Shown: piece after piece, positions 35,866 to 58,765 of the stretch
How positions within the stretch are numbered: position 1 is the stretch's first letter
Layout of the letters: each line of letters opens with the position of its first letter
DNA from: Pocillopora verrucosa
Lineage: Eukaryota > Cnidaria > Anthozoa > Scleractinia > Pocilloporidae
Length of the DNA stretch: 64,000 nucleotides
Assembly: GCF_036669915.1 (NCBI RefSeq)
Contig: NC_089313.1
Location: 11,848,011-11,912,010 of the forward strand
Direction: 5' to 3'
The notes under the pieces: model-generated
The model's database searches: none
Seen by the model: only the letters and a program-made list of their open reading frames with translations
Told to the model about the DNA's origin: nothing
Program-made: the position numbers and the translations under genes

Positions 35866-36021
35866 CCGTCCAGACGGATAATGCGTCTCTTGTGGTATGC
35901 GTCTAGTGTAAAGACGGGACGAATAACAAGACGAACTACGAAAGACGAACGAGATATTCCGCGCGGCGAAAAAAAAAAAGAATGGGCACTAGTGTGCCTT
36001 GTTTGGCGGTAGAATTTAAAG

Positions 36022-37281
36022 ATGGCGGCCGCGCCTGAACTTCTCAAATTTTTTTCCCGTAAGAGTAAGGCAGAACAAGAGTTTTTAGGTCACCAATATA
36101 GGTTAAAGGAAGAAATGGCAAAGAAAGGTTTTCGTAGGGAGATGGAGTTCGAAACTGAAGCTTCACAGCCCGCTGTTATGTCAGCAATCGTGATTACAAA
36201 AAGCGACAGAAACGAGCGTGGTCCTGATGAGTTGAGGAACGGAAATTGGTGGACAGACGGATATCAAAACTGGGATGAAGAATCTTTCAAGAAAAGGTTA
36301 AGGGTGTCTCGAGACACTTTTGAATTTATTCTAAGCGAAATTAAAGACCTTATCGTGAGGGAGCCCACTCGCATGAAGCCTCACCCTACTCCGCCTGCTA
36401 CCCAGTTGGCTTTATGTCTATACAGACTAGCACACGGGTGCACGTTTTTGACCGTTGGAGATCTCTTTGGGGTTGCAGAATCAACTGCTCACATCATTTT
36501 CCAAGACGTTTGTAAGGCCATTGTGGGATGTTTGTATGACAGATTCGTTTACCTGCCAAGAAATCTACAAAAGTGGAGTCAAGAACTGGAAAATTTTCTG
36601 GGAAATTGGGAGTTTCCTTGTGTTGGGGCGTGGGATGGGTTTCATGTTTACGTAAGCACTAAACTTAAGAACTTTTACAGTTACAAGAAGAGGTATTCAG
36701 TTACAAACATGGGATTCATTGGTTATAACAAGCGTTTTATGTGGGCTGCAGTGGGCGCCCCAGGATCCACACATGACTCTAGGCTTTTAAGAAGTTGTGG
36801 TATTTATTCTGACATCGAATCTGGTCACGTGCTTCCTAACAGGTCTTTGAATCTTGACCCTCATGGGGAGATTCCGTTTACCACTGTGGGTGATTCAGCC
36901 TTTCCCAACCATTCCTGGCTTCTAAAACCATACAAAGATGGGACAAGGGTACCTAAGCAAAGGTATTTTAACAGGAGACTTTGCTCTGCAAGGGTAGTTT
37001 CTGAACATGCTTATGGAATGTTAAAGGGGCGGTGGAGAATTCTCTACAAAAAGACAGAATGTCATTTAGACAACATTTCCCTTATCATCATGACCTGCAT
37101 TGCTCTCCATAATCTTTGCATCCACCGAAGTGATCCCTGTAACCCCAGGTGGAGACTTCAGGTCAATGAACTCAATCTGATTCGAAATGGAGATGCCCAA
37201 GCTGATGATGGAAATACAACAAGAGAAGCTGTTGCCAATTGGTTGTGGGATATCAGAGAGGAAAGAAATGCAGCCCCTTGA
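36022..37281 (+). CDS. Harbinger transposase (HARBI1-like, DDE nuclease)
   Basis: Single open frame of 419 residues, typical length for the family. The N-terminal part (about 1-115) is helical; a helix-turn-helix-like region follows (LYRLAHGCTFLTVGDLFGVAESTA, residues 134-156). The DDE_Tnp_4 nuclease domain covers about 198-360. Acidic residues stand at D205 (GAWDGFHV), D252 (GSTHDSRL), D291 (GDSAFP) and E328 (SEHAYGMLKGRW), the expected blocks. The ATG is in good context (AAGATGGCGGCC, with -3 A). It cuts and pastes the element, in known systems together with the Myb-like partner that imports it into the nucleus. No frame damage is visible, so activity is plausible. Confidence 0.95.
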   Translation: MAAAPELLKFFSRKSKAEQEFLGHQYRLKEEMAKKGFRREMEFETEASQPAVMSAIVITKSDRNERGPDELRNGNWWTDGYQNWDEESFKKRLRVSRDTFEFILSEIKDLIVREPTRMKPHPTPPATQLALCLYRLAHGCTFLTVGDLFGVAESTAHIIFQDVCKAIVGCLYDRFVYLPRNLQKWSQELENFLGNWEFPCVGAWDGFHVYVSTKLKNFYSYKKRYSVTNMGFIGYNKRFMWAAVGAPGSTHDSRLLRSCGIYSDIESGHVLPNRSLNLDPHGEIPFTTVGDSAFPNHSWLLKPYKDGTRVPKQRYFNRRLCSARVVSEHAYGMLKGRWRILYKKTECHLDNISLIIMTCIALHNLCIHRSDPCNPRWRLQVNELNLIRNGDAQADDGNTTREAVANWLWDIREERNAAP

Positions 37282-38587: not shown

Positions 38588-39607
38588 CTAATACCAACGC
38601 ATGGATCTTTGATCATTCTGGCTATCCATGTCTAAAATGTGGCTATCTTGGCTACCACTTGCCACTTGATTGGTTGGAGGGGTATGGCTATATGGCATTG
38701 GATTGTAATAAGGTACAAGAGGCTGCACAGGCATTGTTTGTTGTTGGAGATGCTGCTGTGCTCCTTGGGGTGGAGGATTTGAATATTTCATGATGATTTG
38801 AAGCATCTTTAGCTCATGCTGCCTATTCAATTCGGCTTGCTCTTTCTGAAAAGCAAGAAATTCAGCATGCCTTTCTTTGTCTGCTTCCATCATCTTTTCA
38901 CAACGCTTTTGCTGTGATTCTCCAAGTGCGTGAAAACTCTTTGCGATCTCATTTATGGCCTGGGACTGACTTCTTACTCGTTTGTTACGACCTAATGGTT
39001 TTACGTCCAATGAATTTTTTAAAACTTTCCTTTTAACACCTTCGGTTCCACTCTCACTTGTGGAGGTTAACTCTTCCTCACCATCATCTTCCTGATAACC
39101 GCTATGACTTGTTTCTGTCTGCTCTTCGTCACTGTCTGTGTCTGAATTCTCATGAGACAAAACATCTCTTGCTTTGGAAGCAATTTCCAGGTTACCGTGG
39201 GTGTCCGAAAAAATTGGATTTATGATTTTGTACCACTCAGGCTCTTCAATTGGTGACTTACCACTACCTTTCTTGATGCGATCCGTGTATTTACGCCATT
39301 GATCTTTTAACCACTTAAATTTCACTCGAAGCTTTTCAACATCAATTCTCAGATGAGTTAAAGCCTTTTTCGATTTAGACTGACGATGTTCTCTGTCATT
39401 TTCTTCTTTAAATTCTTCGGAGGATATGCGCTCCTCAAAGGCTTTCTTTATATCCTCGAAGACAGGTTTGTTTGCAGTCTTCTTCAACGCAAGCGTGTCC
39501 AGTTTGTAAGCAAACTCGTTTGTTTCGTCTGCCAGAACAAGGGCGAAGTACTTGAGCTCTGTTTCTGTCCATGGTCGACTTCGCTCTTTTGCACTTGACT
39601 CCGCCAT
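38588..39607 (-). CDS. Harbinger Myb/SANT-like DNA-binding protein
   Basis: The frame is open for 369 codons from a Met at 39697. I prefer the internal Met at 39607 (AACATGGCGGAG), which fits the start context of the transposase and gives about 339 residues. A trihelix Myb/SANT-like domain lies at the N-terminus (RPWTETELKYFALVLADE ... KWLKDQWRKY). An acidic Ser/Glu/Asp linker follows, then a basic patch (GRNKRVR), a coiled-coil helix (FLAFQKEQAELNRQHELKML) and a Gln/Pro-rich tail. In zebrafish and related Harbinger systems this second protein binds the termini and carries the transposase into the nucleus. It converges with the transposase gene with about 1.3 kb between their ends. Confidence 0.9.
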   Translation of the reverse strand: MAESSAKERSRPWTETELKYFALVLADETNEFAYKLDTLALKKTANKPVFEDIKKAFEERISSEEFKEENDREHRQSKSKKALTHLRIDVEKLRVKFKWLKDQWRKYTDRIKKGSGKSPIEEPEWYKIINPIFSDTHGNLEIASKARDVLSHENSDTDSDEEQTETSHSGYQEDDGEEELTSTSESGTEGVKRKVLKNSLDVKPLGRNKRVRSQSQAINEIAKSFHALGESQQKRCEKMMEADKERHAEFLAFQKEQAELNRQHELKMLQIIMKYSNPPPQGAQQHLQQQTMPVQPLVPYYNPMPYSHTPPTNQVASGSQDSHILDMDSQNDQRSMRWY

Positions 39608-39839
39608 GTTGTTTTCTTGGGCGGATAACCGCTGGATTTTTTCCGACACGGTCTCATTTCTTAACGTTATTCGTCCGTTGCCCGTCTTTACACACAAAGA
39701 CGCATTATGCGTCCAGACGAACTACCTTTCGAAGTGCGTCGTTCAAGACGCATTTCAAATGAAAGTTCGTCTAGACGTATATTGCGTCTTGTGCCCGTCT
39801 TTACACGAGAGACGCATAACCGGACGAACTACAAATGTT

Positions 39840-51894: not shown

Positions 51895-52503
51895 GCATAC
51901 TGCTAGAGTTATGGATAAGAACTTTCAGAAGAAGTTGGGTATATATTATCTCTCAATTTTTGTAAACGTAACATAATCATGAAGGGTCCAATTAAAATGC
52001 AAGATAATTACTTCAAATGTTCCCAGAATTCTTTCAAAGATGTATATTCCCTGACCTTGAGGAAATTTTTATATCCCTGAGTTTTCCCTAAACTTGTAGC
52101 AACCATGAATAATGCTGTGAAAAAGAGATAAAGCTAAAAGCGTGCACGAAGCATGTTACTTGATGCAAATTATGACTTTGACAGCGACGATTTGAGGAAC
52201 TTTTAGAGTCAATGTTGTTCATAATTGTGTGGTTTTTCCACAAATTATACATCAAATTGTTCCATATCATTTCATACTTTAAAAACCCTTGCCTCCAGCT
52301 ACCGTAAAATGTACCGTGAACTGATGAAATAATGCACATGATTAGTGTCCATCATACCTCTTAACCTTCTACACCTTAATATCAGTAAAGGTATTCTCCA
52401 TACTGTTCCCCATACATCCCGTAAGGTACTGACAAGAAGAATTTGTGTAACAATCAACAGCTTCTTTTGATGCTGATAATTTTCCTTACTCTCATGGCCT
52501 TAC

Positions 52504-54844
52504 CATGATTCGCACATTCAATGACGATAATTTGAATAAATTCAACGAGAACCTTTCAAACGCAAAATGGTCCTTATTTCGCCACATGGAAGATCCCAAT
52601 GAAGCCTATAATGATTTTATTGAAGAATACTCCAGAATCTATAACACCTGTTTCCCTTTAAAGGTTCTCAAAGGTAAGCAGATAAACAAGTTCTTTTCTC
52701 CATGGCTTAGCCGTGGACTTCTGAAATCCGTTAACAAGAAGAACAGACTCTACAAAAAGTTCGTCACATCATCTTCCACATCTTCTGCGATGAAGTATAA
52801 AGCCTACAAAAACAAACTCACCCATCTTATTCGCATTGCCAAACGTAAATACTACGACTCCAAATTTGAGAATGCCAGAAATGACCTCAAAACAACTTGG
52901 AAATTGTTAAATGAAGTTATCAACAAGCGTAAAAGTAAGTCATCTCTTCCCACATCATTCAAATCTGAAGGCAGAACATTAACGGATCCAATCGAGATCG
53001 CTGACAGATTCTGTAAATACTTTACAAACATTGGTCCCAACCTAGCTAAATCTATACCCAAGGTGAATCCTTCTTTTCGTTCTTATCTTGGTGATAATAT
53101 CCGTTCCTCCATAAACTTAAAGCCCACCACAACAAGTGAACTGGAAAGCATTTGTGACATGTTCGCTTCAAAGGCTCCTGGCTATGACAGTATCCCAATG
53201 CATGTCATTAAATATTGATTTCACCTTATTTCTGCTCCATTGGCATATATTATCAATCTATCTCTGCTAAAAGGCATTTTCCCGGACAAACATAAAATCG
53301 CTAAAATTATTCCCATCTTCGAAGCAGAGGATCCTATAACTTTTTTGTAAACTACAGACCTATTCCTTTGTTGTCTAATTTTTCCAAATTTTTCGAAAAA
53401 GTCATGTACAATCGCTTGGTAGAATTTGCCGAAAAACACGATATACTTTACCGCTGTCAGTTTGGATTTCGGAAAAATCACTCGACATCGCACGCACTAA
53501 TTCATTTGGTAAATAAAATAGCTTCTGCAATCGACCAACACGAAACAACGGTGGATGTTTTCCTAGATCTTTCCAAAGCATTTGACACTCTCGACCATCA
53601 TATCTTGTTTGCGAAATTGGAGCACTATGGTATCCGTGACGTGACTCTGCAGTGGTTCAAAAGCTATTTTTCTTGCCGCCAGCAATTTGCCCAATTCAAT
53701 CAAGCTTGCTCTCCTATGCAAACCATCAAGTGTGGTGTCCCTCAAGGTTCGATTTTAGGCCCTCTAATGTTCATTCTATACATAAATGACCTCCCTAATG
53801 CCTCTGAATTAGCAGACCCTCTGCTTTTCGCTGATGACACCAGCATCTTTTATTCTCACTCAAACCCAAATTGCTTAGAATCCGTACTTAATGATGAACT
53901 CCAAAATATTGATGTCTGACTAAAATGCAATAAGCTCTCAGTTAATATAAGGAAAACTAACTACGTAATTTTTAAACCCAGACAGAAGAAATTTAACTCC
54001 AGCATTTCTCTCTCCTTTGGAGGTAAACCCCTACAACAATCTAACGTAACTAAATTCCTTGGGGTCTATATTGATGATCATCTCACTTGGAAACACCATA
54101 TCAGCTATGTATGTAAACAAATCGCTAAATCAATAGGTATCCCAATGCATGTCTCGCTTTTTCTTATCCTCTACAATCAAGCTCACTTTGTACTACACCT
54201 TAATTTATCCTTATATCGTCTATTGTAACTGTGCCTGGTCGTCCACATACGTATCTAACTTAAATAGAATTTACTACTTGCAAAAGCGAGCTGTGCAGGC
54301 TATCACCAACTCAGACTATCGAGCCCATTCCGCTCCTTTATTCTCCAAACTAGGAATTTTAGATATTTTCCAAGTCAATACGTTTGAAATCGCTAAATTC
54401 ATGTTTTATTATAGAAATAACTTATTGCCTCCATTGCTTCTCAATCTTTTTGTAACGAATAGCCAAATTCACAACTATGGTACCAGAACAGCCAGTAATT
54501 ATCGAACGCATTTGTGCCGTACAAACCTCAAGCAATTTACAATTCTTTACCAAGGTCCTAAAATTTGGAACTCTCTTCCTGTTTCAGTCACTCGTTCGTC
54601 AAACCTTCTTAGTTTTAAGACGAAAATGCAAGAGTTTTTACTTAAATAATCCTTGAGTTGGGCTAGCCGCACATTCGCAGCACTTTTTCTTTACTTTATT
54701 TATTAATGTAAGTGAGGTGGCTCTCCCATAAGCCCGGTGGCTTCCTGGGTCTCCTCGCCTTCTAGCTATAACCGCTGTAAATAATTTTTTTTTTGTATTA
54801 TGTAAATAAGGCAAATAAAAATATGATGATGATGATGATAATGA
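52504..54844 (+). mobile_element. 5'-truncated LINE (CR1/L2/jockey-type reverse transcriptase), degraded
   Basis: The insertion limits come from comparison with the empty site in copy B at 60966. Three coding stretches follow one another with stops and frameshifts between. 52505-53218 is the region upstream of RT (KSVNKKNRLYKKF, SKAPGYDSIP). 53368-53919 is the RT core (KAFDTLDHHIL, GVPQGSILGPL, FADDTS, i.e. the YADD-like box). 54149-54649 is thumb and C-terminus (LQKRAVQAITNS, YGTRTASNYR, KIWNSLP). The endonuclease part is missing. The 3' end has AATAAA followed by (ATG)n. Flanking TAC at both sides may be a minimal target duplication. Not functional. Confidence 0.9.
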
Positions 54845-57087: not shown

Positions 57088-58500
57088 TCAAAATGCCCTC
57101 CATGCAAAATGAAGTCTGGTGATACCTTCTTCACCCTGTGAGTAAACAACAGCAGCACTAATTCCGGCCAGGAAACCGTACGACCCTGGTGGAGTCTCAG
57201 TGTAGAATCCTCCACCATCCCCTCCATAAGGACCATAACATTTAGGATCACCATTTTCATCTTTCTTGTTAGTGTAAAAGGAGAGGCGGTCAATCATCCA
57301 TCCAGAATTAACATCAACTTTGACGATCCTTTCATTTTTTTCCAAGTGAAATTCATGGTGTTCGGACAGATCAGAGTCACTTCCCATCATAATCTCTCGG
57401 TCACCATCATGATTAAAAAAAATCTTCAGCCCTCCCAGGACAGGCGTCCCATACCAGCGTCGAATCCAAAGTTTCATTACCTTTATGAAGACGTCACTGC
57501 CAAGATCTTCAACAGCCTCTTTGTTGTTGTGATGTGATGTTTCAGGATGTACGTAGCCACCAGTGGCAAAGGAACACCCCCAACTGACGGTAGGTTTGGC
57601 AAACGCCCGAGTGGTCGCCCATATTTCATCGGCTGAATCTTTCTCGGGGGAATCAGTTTTTAGCTTCCGAGCCTTTGAAATGCTTCCTCTGCTGGAGTCT
57701 GCAATAAGTTTATGTTCTGAGATTTCTTCCAGATAAGACTCTGATAAAGTTGGGAGTCGTACCAAGGATAACAATTCTGGAAAATGTCTTTTTCGGTTGT
57801 CGATATCATGCTCAACATACTTGAAAACAGCTTCCAACACGACCTTTTCCCTTTCCTCTTTGGACGGAATCAGGCTCTCGATAACCACGCAAATACCTTC
57901 ATCAGCAAGAATCTCTTTCAGGAAACCAATTGGAAGCGACAAAAACTCTTCCATCCGAGTGACTTTGGTAAAATGCAACAAAAAGTGCTTTTTAGCCTCC
58001 TTCATTAGCTGTTCCAGCGCAAACAAATCAGCAAGCTGCCAGATGCTAGGACAAGTTTTATCATTAATTGCACCTTTCAGAAAATCTCCGCACGATTCCT
58101 TGACAAACTCCACCTGCAAATAATTGGATACCTCGAGCAAAGTTTGCACATTGTCTTTGCTGATGTCAATTTTGCCCGAATATGCGAATTCGATCAAATC
58201 GCTGACAGCATTCTCGTCAAAGCCAAGAACTTCTATCTCTTTTTTCTCTCCATCGGCCCAGTTTTTCCCGAACAAGGCTTCAAAGTAAGGACTAAAAGAG
58301 GCCAGAACGACACGATGAACTGAAAGCCGTCGGTCTTCACTAATCTTTAAAGTGACATCAGAATATCTGCCATCTTTGTACATGGTCAAAAGCCCCTTCA
58401 GCAGACTACAGCCGTGGCTTGGATCGTTTGCATGTAAGGTTTCCAACTCCGTCGAAAAATACCTTTCCAGAGAAGGTAAACCTCTTTTCATTGCGGCCAT
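57088..58500 (-). CDS. BTB-BACK-jacalin lectin fusion protein (Kelch-like relative)
   Basis: Uninterrupted single-exon frame of 470 residues. The BTB/POZ domain spans about residues 28-145 (YSDVTLKI, HRVVLASFSPYFEALF, FAYSGKI). A BACK domain of about 150-265 follows (IWQLADLFALEQLMKEAKKHF, LRRLPTLSES-like SLVRLPTLSES). A Ser/Lys linker then leads to a C-terminal domain of about 315-470 with the jacalin-like pattern: GG...SHHNNK, IRRWYGTPVLGGLKIFF, HLEKNERIVKVDV, WMIDRLSFYTN, YGPYGGDGGG, LAGISAAVV. In Kelch-like proteins BTB-BACK binds Cullin-3 and a Kelch propeller recruits substrate. Here the propeller is replaced by a lectin-type fold, suggesting a ubiquitin ligase adaptor that might recognise glycans. 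That role is inference. ATG context AAAATGGCCGC is good. It has no signal peptide, so it is cytosolic. Confidence 0.88.
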   Translation of the reverse strand: MAAMKRGLPSLERYFSTELETLHANDPSHGCSLLKGLLTMYKDGRYSDVTLKISEDRRLSVHRVVLASFSPYFEALFGKNWADGEKKEIEVLGFDENAVSDLIEFAYSGKIDISKDNVQTLLEVSNYLQVEFVKESCGDFLKGAINDKTCPSIWQLADLFALEQLMKEAKKHFLLHFTKVTRMEEFLSLPIGFLKEILADEGICVVIESLIPSKEEREKVVLEAVFKYVEHDIDNRKRHFPELLSLVRLPTLSESYLEEISEHKLIADSSRGSISKARKLKTDSPEKDSADEIWATTRAFAKPTVSWGCSFATGGYVHPETSHHNNKEAVEDLGSDVFIKVMKLWIRRWYGTPVLGGLKIFFNHDGDREIMMGSDSDLSEHHEFHLEKNERIVKVDVNSGWMIDRLSFYTNKKDENGDPKCYGPYGGDGGGFYTETPPGSYGFLAGISAAVVYSQGEEGITRLHFAWRAF

Positions 58501-58630
58501 TTTGAAGATTTTCCGAGAAGAGAAAAGTTTAAATGTTCGGTTTCGCTAACGTGGTCTGCAAAGTCTTTAGATTTTAGTTGACAGAGGAAGTCGGGGTGAC
58601 TAGTTACCAGATGTCACACTCGGGTGGAAT

Positions 58631-58765
58631 ACATGGTCAAAAGTCCCTTCAGCAGTTTGGAACCATGGCTGTAATCTTTTGCGTTAAAATTTCCAGATTA
58701 ATATTCGTCGAAAGAGAGCTGACAAAAGAAGAAGTTCACAATCTCTTGGCAGTGGCCATGTAGAC
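58631..58765 (-). pseudogene. Partial duplicate of the BTB-jacalin gene 5' end
   Basis: ATGGTCAAAAGTCCCTTCAG at 58633 matches ATGGTCAAAAGCCCCTTCAG at 58382. The similarity continues through the region corresponding to the first ~40 codons of the gene, up to a GGCCAT start-codon equivalent near 58757. Frame breaks and stops are present. It lies about 130 bp upstream of the intact gene, in the same orientation: a truncated tandem copy. Confidence 0.65.

Follow-up and report, generated by a model that had tools for sequence, protein, structure and literature searches.

A coral BTB-BACK protein with a jacalin-type beta-prism in place of the Kelch propeller, a candidate Cullin-3 adaptor

In the Cullin-3 (Cul3) adaptors KLHL3, KLHL11, KEAP1 and KBTBD2 the BTB and BACK domains are joined to a Kelch propeller, and in BTBD9 they come with a discoidin domain, another C-terminal module that is not Kelch. 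The beta-prism of the jacalin-related lectins (PF01419) has three equivalent corners. Griffithsin binds sugar at all three of them, its second site consisting of Asp67, Tyr68, Asp70 and Gly90 (PMC6723950), whereas in ZG16 the sugar is bound at the C-terminal corner, through Asp151 (PMC4059138). The glycan-reading ubiquitin ligases described in PMC6389600 and PMC12355970 use F-box proteins, and one such sugar-reading ligase, Fbs3, acts on ruptured lysosomes (PMC6389600).

We analysed a stretch of 64,000 nucleotides (the window) of the coral Pocillopora verrucosa, located at 11.85-11.91 Mb of contig C2 in an assembly of 353 Mb and 52 contigs, and found that one of its genes combines BTB and BACK domains with a jacalin-type beta-prism and has no Kelch domain. 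The protein shares with the BTB-BACK-Kelch adaptors the order of BTB and BACK and the position of a W-x-D/E motif, but it is set apart from them by the absence of Kelch and from the SCF ligases by the absence of an F-box. It differs from ZG16, griffithsin and banana lectin in being fused to BTB-BACK, and from BTBD9 in having a beta-prism instead of a discoidin beta-sandwich. If the role predicted below holds, it would couple cytosolic glycan reading to ubiquitination as do Fbs1-3 (FBXO2, 6, 27) and plant F-box-Nictaba (PMC6389600, PMC12355970), although these use an F-box with Cul1/Skp1 and the coral protein BTB-BACK with another lectin fold. This likeness to the sugar-recognising SCF ligases is one of working, not of descent, and the protein, if functional, would work as a hybrid between a KLHL adaptor and a sugar-reading ligase.

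Domain architecture and relatives

The gene and its parts are located as follows.

57088..58500, minus strand: single uninterrupted open frame (58500 to 57088) for a BTB-BACK-jacalin-like protein of 470 residues
58075..58383, minus strand: BTB domain, residues 40-142 (Pfam BTB, E 2.4e-25, 89.3 bits, cut-off 20.5)
58252..58260, minus strand: W81-A82-D83 at the position of the Cul3-contact motif phi-x-E, placed by sequence alignment
57721..58053, minus strand: BACK domain, residues 150-260 (Pfam BACK, E 1.5e-19, 70.4 bits, cut-off 20.9)
57091..57612, minus strand: beta-prism I (jacalin-like) domain, residues 297-470, a predicted fold
57289..57303, minus strand: G400-W-M-I-D404, a GXXXD motif that falls on site II of griffithsin in the hmmsearch alignment
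57211..57234, minus strand: GPYGGDGG, residues 423-430, the GG loop paired with site II, aligned to griffithsin GPYGGSGG

The longest stop-free stretch in 30 shuffled versions of the window was 162 codons, against 470 codons in the gene frame. A preliminary description had claimed an intact single frame in which a jacalin-like domain follows BTB-BACK instead of Kelch, and both parts of this claim were confirmed, the first by six loci of the genome that carry both halves in one frame and the second by the Pfam matches together with the predicted fold. The jacalin profile gave a divided answer: the Pfam Jacalin match of the window protein (residues 342-428, 21.6 bits) lay just under the curated cut-off of 22, whereas sister loci L025 and L026 exceeded it and all 46 aligned members of the family, described below, matched at E <= 0.01. 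Because the full-length structure model matched almost only BTB proteins among the best 50 matches listed, the prism domain was modelled alone, and the beta-prism fold that the preliminary description had anticipated came out. The prism stands where the Kelch propeller usually sits in BTB-BACK-Kelch proteins, and the predicted beta-prism I fold is that of the jacalin-related lectins. Neither a Kelch nor an F-box family matched the window protein (Pfam, E 10), and no signal peptide was visible by eye. The architecture had been called unusual; in keeping with this, our literature searches, which covered subscription journals thinly, brought up no description of a BTB-jacalin protein from an animal.

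A search with residues 300-470 returned 52 proteins at E <= 0.001 among 204 candidates, and the diverged member P0050, used as query, returned 11 proteins, nine of them new. Eight of the 52 were named by source, from Acropora (4), Oculina, Stylophora, Pocillopora and the sea anemone Actinostola, and four of these eight were called 'kelch-like'. The window protein was aligned with 45 of the 52 (P0001, P0004, P0009, P0026, P0032, P0039 and P0040 were left out), and in these 46 sequences Pfam at E 0.01 found Jacalin in 46, BACK in 45, BTB in 44 and Kelch in none. Coral proteins filed as 'kelch-like' need not carry a Kelch domain. In the EukProt protein P0073 the BTB domain is followed directly by Jacalin. 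Two further proteins (jgi), P0109 and P0110, match Jacalin and have a long acidic tail end; the portion of them that is available matches neither BTB nor BACK.

In a 58-sequence tree the window copy clustered with four other copies of its own genome and with P0002 and P0006 (support 0.997), its closest relative being the copy on contig C7 (support 0.998). Several public contigs, recognised by their size, seem to recur among the members (one of 3214129 bases for five proteins), which suggests tandem arrays in other corals too. Viral carriage of the family was rejected, as none of 41 pattern stretches in viral contigs encoded a relative.

Gene copies, selection and the C-terminal tail

Searching the genome with the window protein gave at least seven loci that match beyond residue 400, among the 90 of 191 candidates that were scored (the other scored ones matching mainly over BTB-BACK). 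Five lie on C2 within 105 kb, all on the minus strand, at 11.812, 11.817, 11.822, 11.905 (the window gene) and 11.914 Mb; the other two are on C7 (99 percent) and C13 (43 percent). The 11.812 Mb copy is interrupted and the other six loci are open, so that six intact frames of this genome have the same BTB-BACK-jacalin architecture. The Pfam Jacalin profile, searched against the genome, exceeded its cut-off at four places, three in the window gene family and one elsewhere on C2. At this last place, locus L023 (C2, 6.357 Mb), the match lies in a 135-codon frame, and the 3.3-kb locus, which has no long BTB frame, gives no sign that it belongs to the BTB-BACK family.

From the single exon it had been proposed that the gene arose by retroposition or by recent family spread, and only the latter held. 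The right-hand neighbour shares about 2.5 kb at 92 percent, upstream DNA included, plus the 3' flank, and the 2.1 kb of 3' flank that were scanned contain a single run of at least 8 A, some 2 kb from the gene. The C7 copy lies in an apparent segmental duplication, rearranged and in part inverted, in which pieces of C7 12.669-12.739 Mb match pieces across window positions 221 to 62662 (matches over 400 bases); identity is 93-98 percent, apart from a few secondary matches at 82-89 percent. Retroposition was therefore rejected, and the copy number grew by tandem and, as it appears, segmental duplication. A relic of one more copy was found upstream of the gene.

58629..58759, minus strand: decayed relic of a sister copy, spanning roughly its first 41 codons, about 130 bases upstream of the gene

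The remnant gave a tblastn match at 58691-58629, with 67 bases at 78 percent (E 8e-8) and broken frames; the stretch above 58695 was judged by eye.

Five copies of this genome, compared in ten pairs by the Nei-Gojobori method, showed a dN/dS of 0.20-0.42 over the frame; between the window and C7 copies it was 0.20, from 8 synonymous and 6 other changes. BTB-BACK gave 0.11-0.27 and the prism 0.44-0.84, the prism being higher in 10 of 10 pairs. The whole frame is thus under purifying selection, which is weaker on the prism than on BTB-BACK. We regard the faster change of the prism as a trend, since Fisher's test, applied to seven of the ten pairs, gave a one-sided p < 0.05 in three, uncorrected, and the pairs share branches. 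That the gene is an artefact, in which two separate genes were taken for one or the copy is dead, is extremely improbable; decayed copies do lie alongside it (the upstream relic and the interrupted L006), but both halves stand in one frame at six loci, the family has 46 members and the frame is under purifying selection, so that the fusion of two genes was rejected and a dead copy found no support.

The copies differ in their ends. Forty or more residues follow the prism in 31 of 45 relatives, and in 25 of these 31 the tail is at least a quarter Asp plus Glu. The window and C7 copies stop at WRAF.

57088..57093, minus strand: deletion junction, where the gene lacks 81 bases found in the neighbouring copy, from the alignment with L012, with homology on both sides

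This deletion relative to the 11.914 Mb neighbour removes the start of the tail and creates the WRAF end. A hidden tail exon was rejected because the neighbour alignment shows the deletion, and also because a search of the 10 kb beyond the stop with three tails turned up nothing except short or low-complexity matches. We think it unlikely that the window copy is a tail-less variant that is no adaptor alone and dimerises with tailed sisters so as to tune or block them. Such a part would agree with the loss of the tail by a deletion common to the C7 copy, with the dimerisation of BTB domains (PMC4668279), and with a private change at position 341, where the window copy alone has V, all 45 relatives and the C7 copy having G. 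Against it stand the purifying selection on the whole frame, with the low dN/dS relative to the C7 copy, and the public proteins P0001 and P0063, which end like the window copy.

Among the 29 tails of 45 residues or more, 12 contain QPYMFEPL and 16 an LC3-interacting-like motif, against 5.1 expected from shuffled tails, although these tails share ancestry and are acidic; the pattern counted is the one that we take to describe such motifs. It is conceivable, if rather doubtful, that the full-length family acts as a glycan-guided receptor for degradation or autophagy, in which a Cul3-recruiting BTB-BACK would be combined with a single-site prism for damaged phagosomes or symbiosomes and with the acidic LC3-interacting-like tail. 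The conserved QPYMFEPLA tail end and the LC3-like motif would then hand the target to autophagy, the tandem arrays with their faster prism would form a repertoire for intracellular recognition in corals, and the window copy would be a tail-less variant.

The Cul3 contact, the candidate sugar site and the proposed function

In BTB adaptors the phi-x-E motif is part of the alpha3-beta4 loop and reaches into Cul3 (PMC10564622). The window copy has W-A-D there, ending in D and not in the E of the classical motif. Of the 44 members with letters at this position, 41 have W/F-x-D/E (23 W/F-x-E and 18 W/F-x-D) and three something else. Over residues 13-268 the nearest solved sequences were KLHL3 (E 1.4e-32) and KLHL11 (E 5.9e-26), with gigaxonin and KBTBD2 also among the nearest, and a BACK domain with the 3-box region is present. 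Cul3 recruitment by the window protein is plausible from this homology. A scaffolding or transcriptional role of BTB-BACK, with no binding to Cul3, might be read from the D in the contact motif, and BTB proteins without Cul3 partners exist. We nevertheless consider this role quite unlikely, as BACK comes with the 3-box, the best sequence and structure matches of BTB-BACK are KLHL and KBTBD adaptors, and W/F-x-D/E prevails in the family.

Griffithsin was the best match of the family profile among solved chains (E 2.4e-6), in an alignment that spans its second site. G400-W401-M402-I403-D404 aligned on griffithsin G-D-Y-I-D, so that Asp67, Tyr68, Asp70 and Gly90 correspond to W401, M402, D404 and G430, the last being placed by counting from Asp70. 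The two segments of site II form the beta7-beta8 and beta9-beta10 loops in the structure model. As in the jacalin-related lectins, GXXXD and the GG loop meet at one corner. The corners were placed by alignment with three bacterial or rotifer lectins having Asp at all three, which gave G356 for site I, D404 for site II and T461 for site III; an earlier placement of site I at L355 was replaced, Asp standing at neither position. In contrast to ZG16, griffithsin and banana lectin, Asp is lost at site I and at the usual C-terminal site III, where the window copy has T461 against Asp151 in ZG16. None of the 46 members has Asp at position 356 (45 have G and one R); at position 461 there is T in 44 of them, the other two having I and, in P0006, D. 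Near the C-terminus of the 11.914 Mb neighbour (L005) we found GEGID where others have GEEGIT or the like; through this D, shared by P0006, the third corner regains the GXXXD pattern, and L005 may again possess a site III.

Site II retains an unbroken GXXXD in 38 of the 46 members, and all 38 keep G426 and G430. Mean conservation of the site II residues was 0.96 as against 0.72 for the domain, a value that none of 20000 random draws reached, in draws that ignore structural clustering. Site II is missing entirely from the C13 paralogue and from P0071, a point against sugar binding. In two plant proteins, compared by eye, none of the 4 repeats has Asp at site II and 2 of the 4 have it at site III; the fold thus does not demand Asp at site II. 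Glycan reading is plausible by this motif, kept at one of three possible sites, and since site II is kept we make the reasoned prediction that the prism binds sugar at this one site, a role that would hinge on D404.

A possible alternative, though a tentative one, is a Cul3 adaptor whose prism reads protein and not sugar, the fold serving as a scaffold and the leftover site II residues as structural ones. The loss of Asp at two of three sites is in line with it, as are the replacement of the stacking Tyr68 of griffithsin by Met402 (and of Asp67 by Trp401), the broken GXXXD in 8 of 46 members, and the faster change of the prism relative to BTB-BACK, which a protein-reading surface might show. 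It is opposed by site II being among the most conserved parts of the domain, with an Asp that the fold does not require.

We give an even chance to a cytosolic Cul3 substrate adaptor in which the jacalin-type beta-prism replaces Kelch as a reader of glycans; of the explanations considered, a Cul3-type adaptor whose reader has a lectin fold is the most economical. The BTB domains would dimerise and bind Cul3 via W81-x-D83 and the 3-box, the paired prisms would bind a mannose-, glucose- or GlcNAc-type glycan misplaced in the cytosol by a broken phagosome, symbiosome or lysosome or by ER leak, and the glycan-bound target would be ubiquitinated. Lacking a tail, the window copy would serve simply as an adaptor or would dimerise with tailed sisters. 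Features that count against this reading are the D that ends the Cul3 motif of the window copy and its private change at G341, Met402 and Trp401 in place of Tyr68 and Asp67 of griffithsin, the eight members with a broken GXXXD, and the missing site II of the C13 paralogue and P0071. Many of these animals house algae inside host vacuoles, and if the proposal is true, telling an intact from a broken symbiosome would matter in such hosts. As to where in the cell this would happen, analogy with Fbs3 (PMC6389600) suggests a phagosome, symbiosome or lysosome that has broken, or else a misfolded glycoprotein as the target. A Cul3 adaptor with a jacalin prism would, if true, be an independent invention of the glycan-reading ligase.

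Other elements in the window

A broken non-LTR-like reverse transcriptase lies at 52451-54649 on the plus strand (RVT_1 in 53305-53916, E 4.2e-25), and the frames beside RVT_1 gave no convincing Pfam match. At 38588-39721 on the minus strand a 377-codon frame with no Pfam match runs divergent to the nearby DDE_Tnp_4 transposase frame at 36013-37281 on the plus strand (E 1.3e-26), which we take to be of the Harbinger kind.
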